64,000 bases of DNA from Variovorax sp. UMC13. GTDB lineage: Bacteria; Pseudomonadota; Gammaproteobacteria; Burkholderiales; Burkholderiaceae_C. Of this stretch, positions 46,608 through 54,537 are shown one piece after another. The translations under genes were made by a program, and so were the position numbers. The stretch spans positions 248,001-312,000 of the forward strand of contig NZ_LZZW01000003.1 of assembly GCF_014170375.1 (NCBI RefSeq). The letters run 5' to 3'. How positions within the stretch are numbered: the first letter of the stretch is position 1; every line of letters begins with the position of its first letter. Under the pieces are notes generated by a model. It was not told the origin of the DNA, searched no databases, and saw only the letters and a program-made list of their open reading frames with translations.

Positions 46608-47522
46608 ATGGCAACGGAGATGGACTTGAGCGCGCTCGCGCTGCTGGTGGAGATCCTGGACGCGGGCAACCTCAGCGAGGCCGCGCGGCGGCTGCGCATG
46701 AGCCGGGCCAACGTGAGCTACCACCTGGCGCAGCTCGAGCGCTCGGTGGGTGCGCAACTGGTGCGCCGCACCACCCGGCGTGCCGAGCCGACCGAGATCG
46801 GCCTGCGGCTCTATGCGCACGGGCGCCGGATCCAGAACGAGCTGCTGGCCGCGCGCGAGTCGGTGTCTTCGCTGGGCGACGAACTGCGCGGCCAGGTGCG
46901 CCTGAGCGTGCCCAGCGGCTACGGCCAGCTGGTGATGTCCGACTGGCTGCTGGACTTCAAGCGGCGCTACCCGGGCATCGTGCTCAACGTGATGTTCGAG
47001 AACCGGGTCGACGACCTGCTGCGCGACGAGGTCGACTTCGCGATCCGCGTGATGCCCGAGCCGCCGGCCGCGCTGGTGGCGCGCGAGCTGGGCGTGGTGC
47101 GCTACGTGGCCTGCGCCTCGCGCGCCTATGCGGCGGCGCACGCGCTGCCGACGCAGCTCGCGGACCTTGCCGGCGCGCCGGTGATCACGGCCTCGGTGGT
47201 CGGCAAGCAGCTGCGCGTGTCGGCCTATGCCGAGGGCGAGCGCGAGGAACTGCTGCTCGAGCCCACGCTGATCTCGGAGAACTTCGTGTTCCTGCGCCAG
47301 GCCATCCTGGCCGGCCTGGGCATCGGGCTGGTGCCCGACTACGTGGTGCAGCCGGACATCGCGAGCGGCGAGGTGGTGACGGCGCTCGACGCGCTGCAGC
47401 TGAGCATCTTCGGCACCCGCATGTTCATGCTCTACATGCCCAACCGCCACCACACGCGCGCGGCCTCGACCTTCATCGACTTCATCCTCGCGCGGGCGAA
47501 GGAAGAGGGCCGGCGGCCCTGA
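46608..47522 (+). CDS. LysR-type transcriptional regulator
   Basis: A 304-residue regulator with the winged helix at residues 5-65 (LSALALLVEILDAGNLSEAA; RLRMSRANVSYHLAQLERSV; LVRRTTRRAEPTEIGLRLYA) and the effector domain afterwards (GQVRLSVPSGYGQLVMSDWL; FVFLRQAILAGLGIGLVPDY). GCGAGGG lies upstream of the ATG; an in-frame ATG four codons later is possible. It faces the acyl-CoA oxidation operon, and its likely binding sites are in the gap. Its inducer would be an acyl-CoA or fatty/dicarboxylic acid, by inference. Confidence 0.92.
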   Translation: MATEMDLSALALLVEILDAGNLSEAARRLRMSRANVSYHLAQLERSVGAQLVRRTTRRAEPTEIGLRLYAHGRRIQNELLAARESVSSLGDELRGQVRLSVPSGYGQLVMSDWLLDFKRRYPGIVLNVMFENRVDDLLRDEVDFAIRVMPEPPAALVARELGVVRYVACASRAYAAAHALPTQLADLAGAPVITASVVGKQLRVSAYAEGEREELLLEPTLISENFVFLRQAILAGLGIGLVPDYVVQPDIASGEVVTALDALQLSIFGTRMFMLYMPNRHHTRAASTFIDFILARAKEEGRRP

Positions 47523-47938: not shown

Positions 47939-49705
47939 ATGATCGATATAAGTAATTGGCGTCTTTCGGTAATGACCGCCGCATTGTTCCTTGCCGCGTG
48001 CGGCGGCAGCAACGACACGCAGGTCGCGACCACGCCTCCAGTGAGCGAAAACCCCACGCCTTCCCCGGATCCATCGACCCCGACCGATCCCAATAAATTC
48101 GTCATTCCGCCGGAAGTCGTCGCGGCTGCGGCCAAGATCGATGGCGATGCGCAAATCAAGGCCTTGCTGGCGGACCAGAGTTCGGCCACCGCCGCGAAAT
48201 CGCGCTGGAATCAATTCCTCGAACTGGTGAAAATCGCCTCGCCGTCGCGCTCCGAACTCCGTATGGCCGCCGAAATTCACCAGCGCATGACGAACGAGTG
48301 GGGATTTTCTCCCACCGAAATCAAGACCCGTGCCGACGGCATCATGTACGGCACCGACGTTAATGTGGTGGACGGCCTGCCGGTCTATAACGCCTGCGTC
48401 GAAATCAAGGGCTCCTATTCCAGTTCGGCCGCCGCGAAGCATTACAACGGTCAATTCCCGAAGGTGCTGGTCGAAGGCCACATCGACGTGGTGAATCCGG
48501 AAAGCCTGCCGCCGGCCGGCGATCCCTTCAACAAGATCCGCCTGCAGCCTTTCAGCCAGCCGGTGGTCGAAACGCCGGCCCAGCTCGCCGCGATCAACGA
48601 CGTGCTGCGCTTCGATGGGACCGGCCGGGTCATCGAGGACACGAACTACGGCATCGCCAGCAAGGTCTTCGCCAACGAAGCCGCCGCGAAGGACGGCGGC
48701 GGCGTGCGGGTGTATGTGCCGGGCTACGGCGACATGATGTCCAGCACCTCCAATGCCTTCGTGCTCGCCGCGGCGATGAAGAAGTTCAAGATTCGGCCGG
48801 TCTACGACGTCTGGATCTGCGGCACGGCGGGCGAGGAAGGCAAGGGCAACCTGGCCGGCATGAAGCAGCTCTTCGGCTTCGAGCAGGACCTGGGCACCGG
48901 ATCGAACCCGCTGAACTTCGTCTCCAGCATGGGCCTGGAAGGCGGCGGCACCGTCAACTTCCTGGGCAGCTACCGCTTCGAGATGAAGTTCAAGGCGCCG
49001 GCCACGGCCGGCAGCGGCGACCCGAGCGCGCCGGAAGCCATGGCCGCCGCCATCGCGAAGATCGCCGAGGTGAAGACCCCCTCCGAACTTCGCAAGGATG
49101 CACCCCGGACGACCTACACGGTCGGCCGCGCATCCTGCGAGGCGCCGGCGGCCGGCAGCAGCGTCGTGCCTAGCTGCTCGCTGGAAGTCGACATGCGCTC
49201 GCCGATCACGGAAACCCTCAACGAGGTGCGCGCTTCCATCGTGCCGCAGTTCCAGGCCGGCCTGATGGCGGAGAACGCCCGTTACAGCCGTACCGAGGGC
49301 AGCGCGCAAGCCCTGTCCATGGAGCAGGTCTGGTACGGACTGCGTCCCGCCTTCGTCCTGACGCAGCCCAACACCCCGGCGATCCATGCCGGCATCCAGT
49401 CGGGCCTGACCACCGGGACGGACACCCGCACCACGGTCAACACCTCGTCGGGCAGCCTGAACGACAACGTGCCGGCCAACACCGGCGTGCCGACCTACAA
49501 CTTCACCCTGGCCTCCAATGCCGCGGGTGCGGGCGGTCATGCCTTCTGGGAGTGGGGCACGCGCGGCGCGCCCGAGCTCGAGGTGCAGCGCATGCGTCGT
49601 GTGCTCACCGCCACCCTGATCCAGTCCGGCTACCACGCCGCGGACGGCACCATCGTGCAGCCCTCCGTCGGTCCCATCGGCAACCGCACCCGCGAAGTGC
49701 GCTAA
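47939..49705 (+). CDS. M20-family metallopeptidase, lipoprotein, with a degenerate lid domain
   Basis: A 588-residue zinc-peptidase-like lipoprotein. The lipobox LFLAAC places the lipidated Cys at 21, followed by a Thr/Pro-rich tether (TTPPVSENPTPSPDPSTPT). Metal and catalytic residues of the M20 fold are present: His181-Ile-Asp183 (VEGHIDVV), Asp265 (GYGDMMSS), Glu299-Glu300 (TAGEEGKGN) and His534 (GAGGHAFWEW). The lid/dimerisation domain (about 341-422) is recognisable by GSYRFEMKFKAP and TTYTVGRASC but has ATAGSGDPSAP where other members have GGHS. AGGAG precedes the ATG at 47939. A sigma-54 promoter lies upstream and a separate lid protein is encoded next. Substrates may be peptides or N-acyl amino acids in the periplasm. 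Confidence 0.85.
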   Translation: MIDISNWRLSVMTAALFLAACGGSNDTQVATTPPVSENPTPSPDPSTPTDPNKFVIPPEVVAAAAKIDGDAQIKALLADQSSATAAKSRWNQFLELVKIASPSRSELRMAAEIHQRMTNEWGFSPTEIKTRADGIMYGTDVNVVDGLPVYNACVEIKGSYSSSAAAKHYNGQFPKVLVEGHIDVVNPESLPPAGDPFNKIRLQPFSQPVVETPAQLAAINDVLRFDGTGRVIEDTNYGIASKVFANEAAAKDGGGVRVYVPGYGDMMSSTSNAFVLAAAMKKFKIRPVYDVWICGTAGEEGKGNLAGMKQLFGFEQDLGTGSNPLNFVSSMGLEGGGTVNFLGSYRFEMKFKAPATAGSGDPSAPEAMAAAIAKIAEVKTPSELRKDAPRTTYTVGRASCEAPAAGSSVVPSCSLEVDMRSPITETLNEVRASIVPQFQAGLMAENARYSRTEGSAQALSMEQVWYGLRPAFVLTQPNTPAIHAGIQSGLTTGTDTRTTVNTSSGSLNDNVPANTGVPTYNFTLASNAAGAGGHAFWEWGTRGAPELEVQRMRRVLTATLIQSGYHAADGTIVQPSVGPIGNRTREVR

Positions 49706-49716
49706 GGAACACCCAC

Positions 49717-50172
49717 ATGAACACGCAATTTCTGAAGAAGGCGGCCTGCCTGGCCGCGTTGACACTGGCCGGCCTGTCCGCCCACGCCCAGCAGACGGGC
49801 ACCGTCGCGGTCGAGTTCCAGGGGCCGGGGGGCCACAGCAGCGGCAACTACGGTCGCACCAGCGCCCTTCACGCCGCGGGGCGCGCGGTGATCTTCCTGC
49901 AGCAGGCCAACCTGCCGCATGGCAGCTACACCATCACCAACGTGACCGGCGGCAACTCGGTAAACAGCATCGCCTCCGATGGCCTGATCGAACTGCAGCT
50001 GACGGCGGCCGACGCGACGGCCTATGCCGACGTGGTGAGCAAGATCACGGCTGCGGCCAAGGCGGGCGCCGATGCGGAAAACGCCTTCCGGGGCGTCAAG
50101 GCGGGTGACGTGACGGCCGGCGCGCCGGCGCATATCCGCTACACCGTGAACCCGGGCCTGGCCCTGCGTTGA
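49717..50172 (+). CDS. Secreted stand-alone M20 lid (dimerisation) domain protein
   Basis: A 151-residue protein with a signal peptide (ACLAALTLAGLSAHA) and then only the sequence of an M20 dimerisation domain: VEFQGPGGHSSGNYGRTSAL with His40, a helix LHAAGRAVIFLQQANLP, and NVTGGNSVNSIASDG. No catalytic-domain motifs are present, and it is less than half the length of any M20 enzyme. It starts 11 bp after the lipoprotein peptidase stop. In dimeric M20 enzymes the histidine of the GGHS loop completes the partner's active site, and it is missing from the neighbour's own lid; a role as its partner in trans is my inference. A degenerating duplicate is the alternative. Confidence 0.75.
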   Translation: MNTQFLKKAACLAALTLAGLSAHAQQTGTVAVEFQGPGGHSSGNYGRTSALHAAGRAVIFLQQANLPHGSYTITNVTGGNSVNSIASDGLIELQLTAADATAYADVVSKITAAAKAGADAENAFRGVKAGDVTAGAPAHIRYTVNPGLALR

Positions 50173-50176
50173 GCCA

Positions 50177-50220
50177 TGGCCGGTGCTGCCGGGCGCACGG
50201 GTGCCCGGCAGCACCGGCCA
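50177..50220 (+). terminator. Strong GC-rich hairpin after the lid-protein gene
   Basis: A perfect 18-bp stem (TGGCCGGTGCTGCCGGGC at 50177-50194 and its complement at 50203-50220) with an 8-nt loop begins 5 bp after the stop codon. No T-run follows, so it may terminate with Rho or protect the mRNA 3' end. It separates the M20 pair from the solute-binding protein/two-component genes. Confidence 0.65.
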
Positions 50221-50350
50221 ATGACCCAGGTCGTGCAAAAGCCTCGATCATGTCGACATGCCTGCACGGGCCTGCAATTCAAATTCATAGATCGCCGTGG
50301 TGAATCGAAATCCTGCAAAGGCGCAAGAGACGTTGATCTTTAGACAACTC

Positions 50351-51256
50351 ATGGCATGTCGTGGGTGGTCAGTGATTTGTCGGTTGATTGCCATTTTGGC
50401 GCTCGGCAGCACGTGTGCAGCGCATTCCCAGGACATCGACACGCTGAAGCGCATTGCGGACACCGGCACCGTTCGCCTGGGCCACCGCGAATCGTCCATT
50501 CCATTTTCCTATTACGACGAAAAGCGCAATGCGGTCGGTTTTTCACATGACCTCATGTTGAAGATCGTCGACACGCTCAAATCGAATCTTGGGCTCCCGG
50601 GATTGACGATCAAATTGGTGCCGGTGACGCCGCAGAACCGCATGGCGCTGGTGCAGAACGGCAGCGTGGATATCGAATGCGCATCGACCACCCACAATCG
50701 CGAGCGCGCCCGCCAGGTCGCTTTTTCCACCTCTTTTTTCCAGATCGGGACACGTCTTCTTACACACCGGGCCTCGGGCATCCATGATTTCCCCGATCTG
50801 GCGGGTAAACGCGTGGCCGTGACTTCGGCAACGACCTCCGAGCGGCTGCTGAGAACCTACAATGAACGTTCGGCCAAGGGCTTTCGCATCCTGGTGGGCA
50901 AGGACCACGGCGAATCCTTCGAATTGGTGACGAGCGGCAGGGCCGATGCCTTCATGATGGACGACGCCCTGTTGTACGGCGAGCGCGCAAAAGTGGCGAA
51001 TCCGCAGGATTGGGATGTGGTGGGCACGCCGATGTCATCCGAAGTGTACGGATGCATGATGCGATTGAAAGACCATCAGCTCAAGAAGATCGTCGACGGT
51101 GCCCTGATAAAAATGATGACAAGCGGAGACATATTGAAGGTGCACCAGAAGTGGTTTCAAAAACCCATTCCACCGCGCGGGCTGAATCTGGCCTGGCCGG
51201 CTTCGCCGGAATTGCGGGATCTGTACGCACATCCCAACGACCAGCCGTCGGAATAG
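50351..51256 (+). CDS. Periplasmic amino-acid-type solute-binding protein (GltI-like)
   Basis: A protein of about 301 residues in the family 3 extracellular solute-binding group: signal peptide VICRLIAILALGSTCAAHSQ, then IDTLKRIADTGTVRLGHRES, SIPFSYYDEKRNAVGFSHDL, QNGSVDIECASTTHNRERAR and SGRADAFMMDDALLYGERA. It resembles glutamate/aspartate binding proteins. ATG 50351 is preferred because the leader begins there; a GTG at 50297 is in frame and no Shine-Dalgarno decides between them. No ABC permease or ATPase is adjacent; instead a sensor kinase gene starts 7 bp after its stop, so a role in ligand sensing is likely. The codons are more AT-rich than the neighbourhood. Confidence 0.85.
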   Translation: MACRGWSVICRLIAILALGSTCAAHSQDIDTLKRIADTGTVRLGHRESSIPFSYYDEKRNAVGFSHDLMLKIVDTLKSNLGLPGLTIKLVPVTPQNRMALVQNGSVDIECASTTHNRERARQVAFSTSFFQIGTRLLTHRASGIHDFPDLAGKRVAVTSATTSERLLRTYNERSAKGFRILVGKDHGESFELVTSGRADAFMMDDALLYGERAKVANPQDWDVVGTPMSSEVYGCMMRLKDHQLKKIVDGALIKMMTSGDILKVHQKWFQKPIPPRGLNLAWPASPELRDLYAHPNDQPSE

Positions 51257-51263
51257 CGCCCCC

Positions 51264-53105
51264 ATGGTGCGGGGTCCGGCAATTGCCAATATTCTCAAGG
51301 CCGCCATCGGCGTCGTGGCGCTGGTGCTGATCGCCGCCGCCGCGATGTTTTCCTATCAGCGGGGAAAAGAAAGCGGTATTCGACAGCTCATGACCGAAGC
51401 CAACCACCGGCTCGATCTTTTTGCATCGGCGGTGGAGGGCGTTGCCAAGCCGCTCGAAAACATTCCGGCCACCATCCAGTTGCATCCGGACGTGCTGGAG
51501 ATCCTGCGCACGCCCGGCACGCTGCGCACCACCCGCGCGGTGAACGACTATCTCCGGCGCCTCAATGCCCATGTGGGCGGGCTGGCGGCCTTCACCCTCA
51601 ACGTGCGGGGCGTGGTGGTGGCTTCGAGCAACACCTCCGCGCAGGACGACAGCCTGCTGGGCACCGACGTCTCCTTCCGGCCGTATTTCCTCGATTCGCT
51701 CGCCGGCCGTGTGGGCAAGCATTTCTCCATCGGCATCGACGGCGGCGGCGCCGGCTACTTCGTCTCGTACCCGGTGCGGGACGGCGCGGTGGTGGTGGGC
51801 GTGGCGGTGATCAAGATCGGGCTGCACCCGGTCGACCAGCTCTGGGACCTGGTCGGTTCGCCCGCGTTGATCGCGGACGCCAACCAGGTGGTGATCCTCG
51901 CGTCGCGGCCCGAATGGCGCTACCGCGCGCTCTCGCCGCTGTCCGTGGAGCAGCGCGTGAACCTGCAGCTCACCCGGGCCTATTCCGACCTGGAGATCCT
52001 GCCGGTCCAGGATTTCCTGAACATCGGCGCCGATGGCGACGTCCGGACCGACGGCCAGAAGATGACGCTGATCCGTCCGCTCGACGGCATGGACTGGCGC
52101 GTCAGCATCGTGCTCGACCTGAAGCAGGTGCACCGCACCGCGAGGATGGCCGCGCTCACCGGCGGCGGCGCCGCCACCTTGCTGCTGCTGCTGGCGCTGG
52201 CCGCGGTCCAGTGGCGGCGCATCGCCAAGCAGCGCCGGCTGGTGCGGCGGATGCTGGAGCAGTCGAACGTGGCCCTCGAGATCAAGGTCGCGGAGCGTAC
52301 GCACGACCTCAGCACCATCAACGACCAGTTGCGCCGCGAGGTGCACGAGCGCAACGTGGCCGAGCAGTCCTTGCGGGCCGCGCAGAGCGAGCTGGTGCAG
52401 GCGGGCAAGATGGCGGTGCTGGGGCAGCTCTCGGCCGGCATCACCCACGAGCTCACCCAGCCGCTGGGCGCGATGCGCACCATTGCCGGCAATGCCGAGG
52501 AATTCCTGCTGCGCGGAAAATCCGACAGCGCGATCCAGAACCTGAAGATCCTCGGCCGCCTGGTCGACCAGATGGGCGGGATCATCCAGCCGCTGAAGAA
52601 CTTCGCCCGCAAGTCCGAGCCTGTCTTCCAGAAGGTCGACCTGAGCAAATCGCTGGGCGACGCGCTCTTTCTCCTGAGCAGCAGGATCCGCGCGCTCCAG
52701 GTCGAGATCCGCAACCCGGTCGCGAAGGGCCAGTTCTTCGTTCGCTGCGAACAGAACCGGCTCGAGCAGGTGCTGATCAACCTGCTGAGCAATTCGCTGG
52801 ATGCGCTCGAAGCGCAGGATTCGCCGCGGGTCATCACGGTCGAGGCCGAGCAGGGCGGCGATGGGCCATGCGATGCCCGCATGACCCGCATCAGTGTTTC
52901 GGACAACGGCGCGGGCATGGACGAAGCCACGCGCGCCCGCTTGTTCGAACCTTTTTTCACCACCAAGGAAAGTGGCGCGGGCCTCGGCCTGGGCCTGGTC
53001 ATTTCGCGCGACATCCTGACCGAGTTCGGCGGCACGATCGAAATCGTCTCCACGCAGGGTCGCGGCACCTGCTTTCGTTTGAGGATACCGTCGTATGAAC
53101 CGTGA
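51264..53105 (+). CDS. DctB-like membrane sensor histidine kinase
   Basis: A 613-residue inner-membrane kinase. TM1 (about 8-28, ILKAAIGVVALVLIAAAAMF), a periplasmic double-Cache-type sensor domain (30-290; SFRPYFLDSLAGRVGKHFSI; GGGAGYFVSYPVRDGAVVVG), TM2 (ALTGGGAATLLLLLALAAVQ), then a coiled coil (about 320-385). The HisKA box is LGQLSAGITHELTQPLGAMR with phospho-acceptor His395. The ATPase shows N-box NRLEQVLINLLSNSLDALEA, SVSDNGAGMD, FEPFFTTKESGAGLGLGLVI. This matches DctB, which senses C4-dicarboxylates and phosphorylates DctD. The gene overlaps the regulator by 11 bp. The ligand may instead be supplied by the upstream binding protein. Confidence 0.92.
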   Translation: MVRGPAIANILKAAIGVVALVLIAAAAMFSYQRGKESGIRQLMTEANHRLDLFASAVEGVAKPLENIPATIQLHPDVLEILRTPGTLRTTRAVNDYLRRLNAHVGGLAAFTLNVRGVVVASSNTSAQDDSLLGTDVSFRPYFLDSLAGRVGKHFSIGIDGGGAGYFVSYPVRDGAVVVGVAVIKIGLHPVDQLWDLVGSPALIADANQVVILASRPEWRYRALSPLSVEQRVNLQLTRAYSDLEILPVQDFLNIGADGDVRTDGQKMTLIRPLDGMDWRVSIVLDLKQVHRTARMAALTGGGAATLLLLLALAAVQWRRIAKQRRLVRRMLEQSNVALEIKVAERTHDLSTINDQLRREVHERNVAEQSLRAAQSELVQAGKMAVLGQLSAGITHELTQPLGAMRTIAGNAEEFLLRGKSDSAIQNLKILGRLVDQMGGIIQPLKNFARKSEPVFQKVDLSKSLGDALFLLSSRIRALQVEIRNPVAKGQFFVRCEQNRLEQVLINLLSNSLDALEAQDSPRVITVEAEQGGDGPCDARMTRISVSDNGAGMDEATRARLFEPFFTTKESGAGLGLGLVISRDILTEFGGTIEIVSTQGRGTCFRLRIPSYEP

Positions 53106-54537
53106 TGAATGTGCCGGCAGCAACCTGATGGTCCTGCTGGTGGAAGACGAGCCCGACATGCGCCTGGGCTGCACGCAGGCGCTGGACCTCGACGGCATCC
53201 CCTCCCGCGCGGTGGCGAGCGTGGAGGAGGCCCGCCCCTTGCTGCAGCCCGGCTTTCCCGGCGTGGTCATCACCGACATGAAGCTGCCCGGCGACGACGG
53301 CCTGGCGCTGATCAAGTTCTGCCGCCAGCTCGATGCCGAACTGCCGGTGGTGATGATCACCGGGCACGGCGACGTCCGGCTGGCCGTGGAAGCCATGCGA
53401 AACGGCGCCTACGATTTCATCACCAAGCCCTTTTCCAGGGAGACGCTGCTGGACGTGACCCGACGCGCCCTCGAGAAGCGGCGGCTTACGCTGGAAGTGT
53501 TGAAGCTGCGGCGGAGCCTGGCGGACCTGCACGGTTTCGAGCGGCAACTGGTCGGCGCCTCCGAACACATCAAGAACGTGCGCACACTGACGGCGGAGCT
53601 GGCCGCCTCGCCCATCGACGTGCTGATCTCCGGTGAAACGGGCACCGGCAAGGAAGTGGTCGCGCAGGCACTGCACACCCAGTCCGACCGCCGCCAGGGG
53701 CCCTTCGTCGCCATCAACTGCGGCGCCATGTCCGACCAGCTTCTCGATGGCGAGCTCTTCGGGCACGAGCCGGGCGCCATGCCGGGCGCGCTGGAAAAAC
53801 GCATCGGCAAGATCGAGTTCGCGAACGGCGGCACCCTGTTCCTGGACGAGCTGGAGTCGATGTCCATCTCGATGCAGATGAAGCTGCTGCGGGTGATCCA
53901 GGACCGCAAGATCGAGCGCATCGGCTCCAACGAGCAGCTGCATGTGGACGTCCGCATCATCGCGGCGACCAAGATCAACCTGCTGCAGGCCGCGCAGGAA
54001 GGGACGTTCAGGGCCGACCTGTACTACCGGCTGAACATCGCCTCGGTCAAGATGGCACCCTTGCGCGAGCGGCGGGAGGACATCCCGGTCCTGCTCAACC
54101 ACTTCCTGCTGCTGGCCTCGAGCCGCTATGCGCGACCGCTGCCCGAGATCAGCCAGGCGCAGCAGAACCAGCTGCTGGCACACGACTGGCCCGGCAATGT
54201 GCGGGAGCTCAAGAACATCGCCGAATGCCTGGTGCTCAACGTGCCGTGCGGCGTCATCACCCGGCGCGAGCCCGACGCGGACCCCGACCTGGACAACGAT
54301 CCCGGCCTGGTCGACATGGTCGAGAACTTCGAAAAAGCGATCATCGAGAGCGTGCTGGTCAAGCACAGCGGCAACGCGTCCCTGAGCGCCCGCTCGCTGA
54401 AGGTGCCCAAGACCACGCTGGCCGACAAGCTGAGGAAATACAACCTCTCGACCAGGCGCGACGACGGTCCGCTCGCCGCGACGCGGGTGCGCCCCGAAGG
54501 CGCCGCGGAAAGAGATCCGCAGGAAGCCGTGGAGTAA
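53095..54537 (+). CDS. DctD-like response regulator with sigma-54 AAA+ domain and a variant GAFTGA loop
   Basis: A 480-residue regulator: receiver domain (1-125) with acidic pocket VEDEPD and phospho-acceptor Asp61 (VITDMKLPG); AAA+ domain with Walker A GETGTGKE (180-187), Walker B GGTLFLDE (245-252) and sensor DLYYRLNIASVKMAPLRERR. The C-terminal Fis-type helix-turn-helix is NASLSARSLKVPKTTLADKL. The loop that contacts sigma-54, GAFTGA, reads GAMPGA (227-232), with Phe and Thr both changed, so normal sigma-54 activation cannot be taken for granted. It is the likely binder of the dyads upstream of the M20 gene. Confidence 0.92.
   Translation: MNRDECAGSNLMVLLVEDEPDMRLGCTQALDLDGIPSRAVASVEEARPLLQPGFPGVVITDMKLPGDDGLALIKFCRQLDAELPVVMITGHGDVRLAVEAMRNGAYDFITKPFSRETLLDVTRRALEKRRLTLEVLKLRRSLADLHGFERQLVGASEHIKNVRTLTAELAASPIDVLISGETGTGKEVVAQALHTQSDRRQGPFVAINCGAMSDQLLDGELFGHEPGAMPGALEKRIGKIEFANGGTLFLDELESMSISMQMKLLRVIQDRKIERIGSNEQLHVDVRIIAATKINLLQAAQEGTFRADLYYRLNIASVKMAPLRERREDIPVLLNHFLLLASSRYARPLPEISQAQQNQLLAHDWPGNVRELKNIAECLVLNVPCGVITRREPDADPDLDNDPGLVDMVENFEKAIIESVLVKHSGNASLSARSLKVPKTTLADKLRKYNLSTRRDDGPLAATRVRPEGAAERDPQEAVE

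Follow-up and report, generated by a model that had tools for sequence, protein, structure and literature searches.

Aminoacylase-1 is a homodimeric enzyme of the M20 family in which the lid histidine (His) and asparagine (Asn) of one chain meet the arginine (Arg) of the other. In carboxypeptidase G2 (CPG2), Arg288 in the lid of one chain contacts the other chain at His229 and Asn275 (PMC6271292), and two reports on DapE describe an opposite-chain His194 that forms the oxyanion hole (PMC10815964) and a deletion of the lid that abolishes activity (PMC4012986). By the logic of such homodimers, each lid would give its His and Asn to the partner's active site and its Arg to its own. Here, we describe two adjacent genes in a 64,000-nucleotide stretch of the Variovorax sp. 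UMC13 genome (contig NZ_LZZW01000003.1, positions 248,001 to 312,000; hereafter, the window), the first encoding an M20-type peptidase and the second a bare M20 lid domain. Judging from sequence, we consider it very likely that they encode a single M20 hydrolase, a heterodimer to whose active site the lid-only protein gives His40 and Asn83 and the peptidase lid gives Arg420.

Such an enzyme would share with CPG2, DapE and aminoacylase-1 the two-metal catalytic domain and a lid His and Asn that meet Arg across chains; those enzymes are built from identical full-length chains with two active sites, whereas the window pair consists of one catalytic chain and one lid-only chain. The pair also departs from a self-complementing homodimer with His, Asn and Arg in each lid, as the peptidase is without His and Asn, and its small partner is without Arg. 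Heteromeric M20 enzymes are known: AbgA and AbgB of the Escherichia coli p-aminobenzoyl-glutamate hydrolase are homologous, co-encoded subunits, both of full length, that form a heterotetramer. The authors of that work weighed the idea of one subunit for catalysis and one for interaction, and instead found that the homology extends over the full length of both (PMC5082436). The lid-only protein does not fit a type made of two full-length homologous subunits, being 151 amino acids (aa) long with no catalytic domain found. The best solved relative of both window proteins, by sequence and by fold, is the poly(aspartic acid) hydrolase PahZ2 (7ljh), which differs in having GGHS, SVNS and DMRS all in one lid; its kinship with the split peptidase is only distant, and the latter has extra N-terminal stretches. 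The elements of the pair are as follows.

47939..49705, + strand: catalytic subunit, a predicted exported M20-type hydrolase of 588 aa; signal with lipobox LAAC
48959..49291, + strand: the peptidase's own lid; Arg420 (VDMRS) kept, GGHS His and SVNSI Asn gone
49717..50172, + strand: lid-only subunit of 151 aa; predicted signal peptide and bare M20 dimerisation domain

Residues of the two lids

The initial annotation had proposed that the small protein supplies a lid histidine in trans to the peptidase. A recheck of the window bore out its two open reading frames (ORFs), their coordinates and the 11-bp gap between the genes, as well as the peptidase residues that it quoted (His181, Asp183, Asp265, Glu299/Glu300 and His534), the ATAGSGDPSAP found in place of GGHS in the peptidase lid, and the His40 and GGNSVNSIAS of the lid protein encoded next to it. 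It had not mentioned Glu334, Arg420 or the reciprocal distribution of His and Asn versus Arg. With Glu334 included, the metal and catalytic set of the peptidase is H181, D183, D265, E299, E300, E334 and H534; the lid-only protein has His40 and Asn83, with Thr96 where Arg would be expected.

If the two window proteins form a single site of this kind, Arg is expected to be retained in the peptidase, where His and Asn could disappear, and the opposite is expected of the lid-only protein. As a reference map, CPG2 was aligned to an intact M20 relative in the window's own genome: His229, Asn275 and Arg288 of CPG2 fall on the GGHS His, SVNT Asn and DIRS Arg of that relative, a numbering offset of 22 fitting all three positions. 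Among distinct lids, intact M20 relatives carry His in 65/65, Asn in 64/65 and Arg in 65/65, and lid-only proteins carry His in 47/47, Asn in 47/47 and Arg in 1/47. The alignment of split peptidases holds no intact His at the GGHS position (0/45 distinct lids, two of them with a gap there), Asn in 4/45 and Arg in 45/45; the four Asn belong to a variable loop that has no SVNSI motif.

Because the intact rows had been chosen by a GGHS-rich lid profile, the motif count was redone on rows chosen by a peptidase profile. Two of these 70 distinct ORFs were split-peptidase fragments, and the rest had GHS in 68/68, a VN-type motif in 65/68 and DxRS in 67/68. Counted as plain motifs, VN[STA]I occurred in 0/61 split-peptidase ORFs, DMRS in 61/61 and GHS, anywhere in the ORF, in 1/61; the lid-only ORFs had GHS and VN[STA]I in 47/47 each and DMRS in 0/47. 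Database proteins were examined as the window plus the best 120 of 602 peptidase matches and the window plus the best 120 of 1039 lid-only matches. No listed peptidase has a His in the lid loop (residues 345-371; 0/121) and all have Arg420 (121/121), and every listed lid-only protein has His40 and Asn83 (121/121 each). Among the 26 columns conserved in intact lids, those of the His and Asn motifs persist in the lid-only proteins and the Arg-side columns (R346, T391, T392, D418, R420, S421 and L427) persist in the peptidase; an E-N is common to both proteins, and a few columns are kept in neither. A substitute His within the peptidase was ruled out, as the only invariant His in 38 full-length rows are H181 and H534, both metal ligands.

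This reciprocal pattern supports the proposed supply of the lid His in trans and, as a matter of sequence, argues specifically for completion of the active site between chains. It also bears on the idea that the lid-only protein is a regulator (an inhibitor, cap or chaperone) that sits on the peptidase lid and donates no catalytic residues, which we regard as very unlikely. A bare dimerisation domain could well fill a dimer interface, and gene pairing by itself would fit a regulator equally; what such a role leaves unexplained is the presence of His and Asn in 47/47 lid-only rows, their loss from the peptidase and the opposite behaviour of Arg.

Occurrence of the gene pair

Two peptide patterns, derived from a 30-row peptidase alignment, were run over a collection of 84,980 species genomes; this survey, which was not exhaustive, confirmed 39 peptidase loci. 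Profile searches placed a lid-only ORF immediately downstream on the same strand at 39/39 of them, so that the pairing is conserved in other genomes; the intergenic gaps run from -1 to 51 bp (median 17, with start codons picked by script). Across 260 genomes in two taxonomic groups, 33 had both genes, none the peptidase alone and one the lid-only gene alone. The first group, the family of genome G055 (67 genomes), contributed 20 with both genes, one with the lid-only gene alone, none with the peptidase alone and 46 with neither; the second, the class of locus L076 (193 genomes), contributed 13 with both and none with a single gene. Among the 33 are one genome with a shortened peptidase gene (G502) and one in which the locus is cut by a contig end (G539). 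In these searches lid-only proteins scored at least 93.9 bits and intact enzymes at most 80.0 bits.

Elsewhere the pair is sporadic: it was found in 1/37 genomes of the window's genus and 1/398 of its phylum (at most 10 candidates scored per genome), in both cases the window's own genome. Named hosts include Variovorax, Ramlibacter, Comamonas, Lampropedia, Parasutterella and Acidobacteria. Record titles suggested a spread to Acidimicrobiia (L075) and Cyanobacteria (L070); this was rejected, as both genomes fall inside the class of L076, and the titles are probably mislabelled. The listed database peptidases and lid-only proteins include 12 pairs on equally long contigs, which is suggestive only.

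Throughout its range, in Burkholderiales and in one class of Acidobacteria, the pair has kept both ORFs and their invariant residues, which makes it scarcely credible that the two genes are functionless debris left when an M20 gene broke or was partly duplicated. Two decaying cases are nevertheless of the kind that debris would yield. In G502 (L152 1674-2502) the peptidase gene is down to its last 140 residues beside an intact lid-only gene, with no contig end there. G521 (L153 4221-4548) has a third lid-only copy with stop codons, in a genome that also holds two intact pairs; no peptidase match lies within the 9 kb surrounding that copy.

Domains, fold and ancestry

The peptidase has a catalytic domain with an inserted lid fold, as expected of an M20 enzyme. 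The lid-only protein matches PF07687 alone, above the Pfam gathering score, and also matches the dimerisation-domain fold; its single-chain model has a predicted local distance difference test score (pLDDT) of 84. In a 41-row peptidase alignment that counts the window twice, the metal and catalytic set (H/D, D, E-E, E or D, H) is kept in all rows but two, both near contig ends: the peptidase reading frame of L083 changes close to one, and the peptidase of L099 is truncated by one. Position 334, presumably the usual site of a further M20 metal ligand, is Glu in 26/41 and Asp in 15/41 of these rows, a difference that separates soil from gut branches and might mark different substrates.

The signal peptide of the lid-only protein ends near AHA, as judged by eye. 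A lipobox pattern occurs in 9/37 judged peptidases, with a near-match in L065 and uncertain start codons in L066 and L072; on this sequence evidence membrane anchoring is not general in the peptidase family, contrary to the picture of a membrane-anchored system in the initial annotation. Its description of the enzyme as subunit-regulated found no evidence.

In a tree of lids, those of the lid-only proteins group in a single clade (support 92) and those of the split peptidases in another (support 100), and the reciprocal loss, read from sequence kinship, probably happened once and was then retained. An origin of the lid-only gene as a recent duplicate of the peptidase's own lid is unsupported, as the clades are not sisters, although the deep branches are weak; direct comparison of the window's two lids gave no significant match (E 0.17). 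The similarity of the two proteins' distance matrices (r 0.94) is not used as evidence, because shared descent alone yields such a value. Fusion of the peptidase and the lid-only domain in one chain was sought and not found in the listed peptidases (0/121). Eleven of these are 691-696 aa long; in P0138 (691 aa) about 100 extra aa lie N-terminal to the M20 part and do not form a lid.

Neighbouring genes

The lid-only gene is followed directly by one further element.

50177..50220, + strand: hairpin, a possible transcript end, directly 3' of the lid gene; 20-pair stem with one G-U

The 66 bases folded around this hairpin gave -53 kcal/mol (z -7.5); it has no T run, and a terminator scan of the window made no call there. 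Upstream of the pair lies a LysR-like regulator gene (46608-47522), and downstream (50297-54537) a group of binding-protein, histidine-kinase and sigma54-type regulator genes, all judged by eye.

A third conserved gene might have hinted at the substrate; apart from the pair, none of the 14 largest ORF clusters reached more than 8/40 loci, and those found in 5 to 8 loci are confined to Parasutterella-type loci. Within these 14 clusters, the upstream regulator is the one flanking gene of the window that groups with ORFs from elsewhere, in a LysR-type cluster of four loci (the window, L062, L071 and L081). This clustering under-detects, because it recovered 35 peptidases and 27 lid genes from the 40 loci; the 39/39 pairing count does not rest on it.

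Discussion

Our reading of the two genes as a heterodimer rests on their adjacency, their co-occurrence, the kept metal ligands and the reciprocal cis/trans loss of lid residues. Both proteins would be exported to the periplasm, where the two lids may associate laterally in the manner of the CPG2 or DapE homodimer, and the lid-only protein would close over the two-metal site of the peptidase. There, His40 would help to build the oxyanion hole, and Asn83 together with Arg420 would hold the substrate carboxylate. Because the lid-only protein has no catalytic site, the His and Asn of the peptidase lid and the Arg of its partner would be freed from selection. Cys400 and Cys413 of the peptidase lid, both invariant in the alignment of loci, flank the SVNSI-equivalent loop, and a disulfide between them is possible across this loop that lost its Asn. 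There is perhaps an even chance that this stripped homodimer is a two-key enzyme, a catalytic half and a dedicated lid half that completes the oxyanion hole, inert until the two meet outside the cytoplasm.

Several observations weigh against the heterodimer. The scores of the peptidase fall short of the Pfam gathering cut-offs for M20 domains (20.9 bits against 24.6 for PF01546; 19.3 against 21 for PF07687), and its single-chain model is middling (pLDDT 69.5). The residue counts are not independent, because each lid type forms a single clade. Some His is present in 13/45 split lids, those of L076 and L083 lying in the loop and off the GGHS column; one of the 61 distinct split-peptidase ORFs has a GHS string somewhere along its length; and Arg stands at the lid-only position in 8/121 listed database rows. 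The M20 enzyme PepD, whose arrangement lies within a single chain, was no less active when its equivalent His was changed (PMC6271292).

A further difficulty is posed by genome G055, whose lid-only gene (L151 7581-7991, the same gene as in L033) has intact His and Asn motifs and no peptidase, either within the surrounding 15 kb or by whole-genome search; the heterodimer model gives no account of why it keeps them. This orphan adjoins dinB-like and transporter-like genes, named from their translations. G055 holds intact PahZ2-like enzymes, and such a relative is also present in 20/20 pair-bearing genomes of its family, so the lid-only protein may act with that enzyme there. The corresponding alternative is that the lid-only protein serves another M20 enzyme of the cell and that the peptidase acts alone with a remodelled lid, possibly braced by a disulfide between the invariant Cys400 and Cys413. 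We consider this highly unlikely, given that a search of 23 pair-bearing genomes, which represent 23 of the 39 loci and include some incomplete assemblies, showed no intact PahZ2-like M20 at E <= 0.001 in 15 of them, that the lid-only gene is strictly adjacent to the split peptidase, and that intact M20 enzymes bear their own His (65/65) and Asn (64/65).

The proposed heterodimer also has a parallel in activation by a dead paralogue. In the prozyme-type activation of trypanosome AdoMet (S-adenosylmethionine) decarboxylase, the enzyme is switched on in trans by a catalytically dead paralogue; that partner is a whole pseudoenzyme, whereas the window partner is no more than one lid domain, which would itself contribute residues. 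The initial annotation knew of no described system of this form. That holds for a catalytic chain with a bare lid, a stand-alone M20 lid subunit not being found in the open-access literature among the matches listed (titles and abstract openings), and fails for heteromeric M20 enzymes as such, of which AbgAB is one.

These results suggest what a group of short proteins, with 1039 matches of similar length (the best 120 examined) and named in databases by its domain only, may do in the cell. If the heterodimer is real, the active site that two identical hydrolase chains share can be divided unequally in evolution, and the pair would offer a natural complementation system for testing directly what the M20 lid does in trans, by the addition or omission of one small protein.
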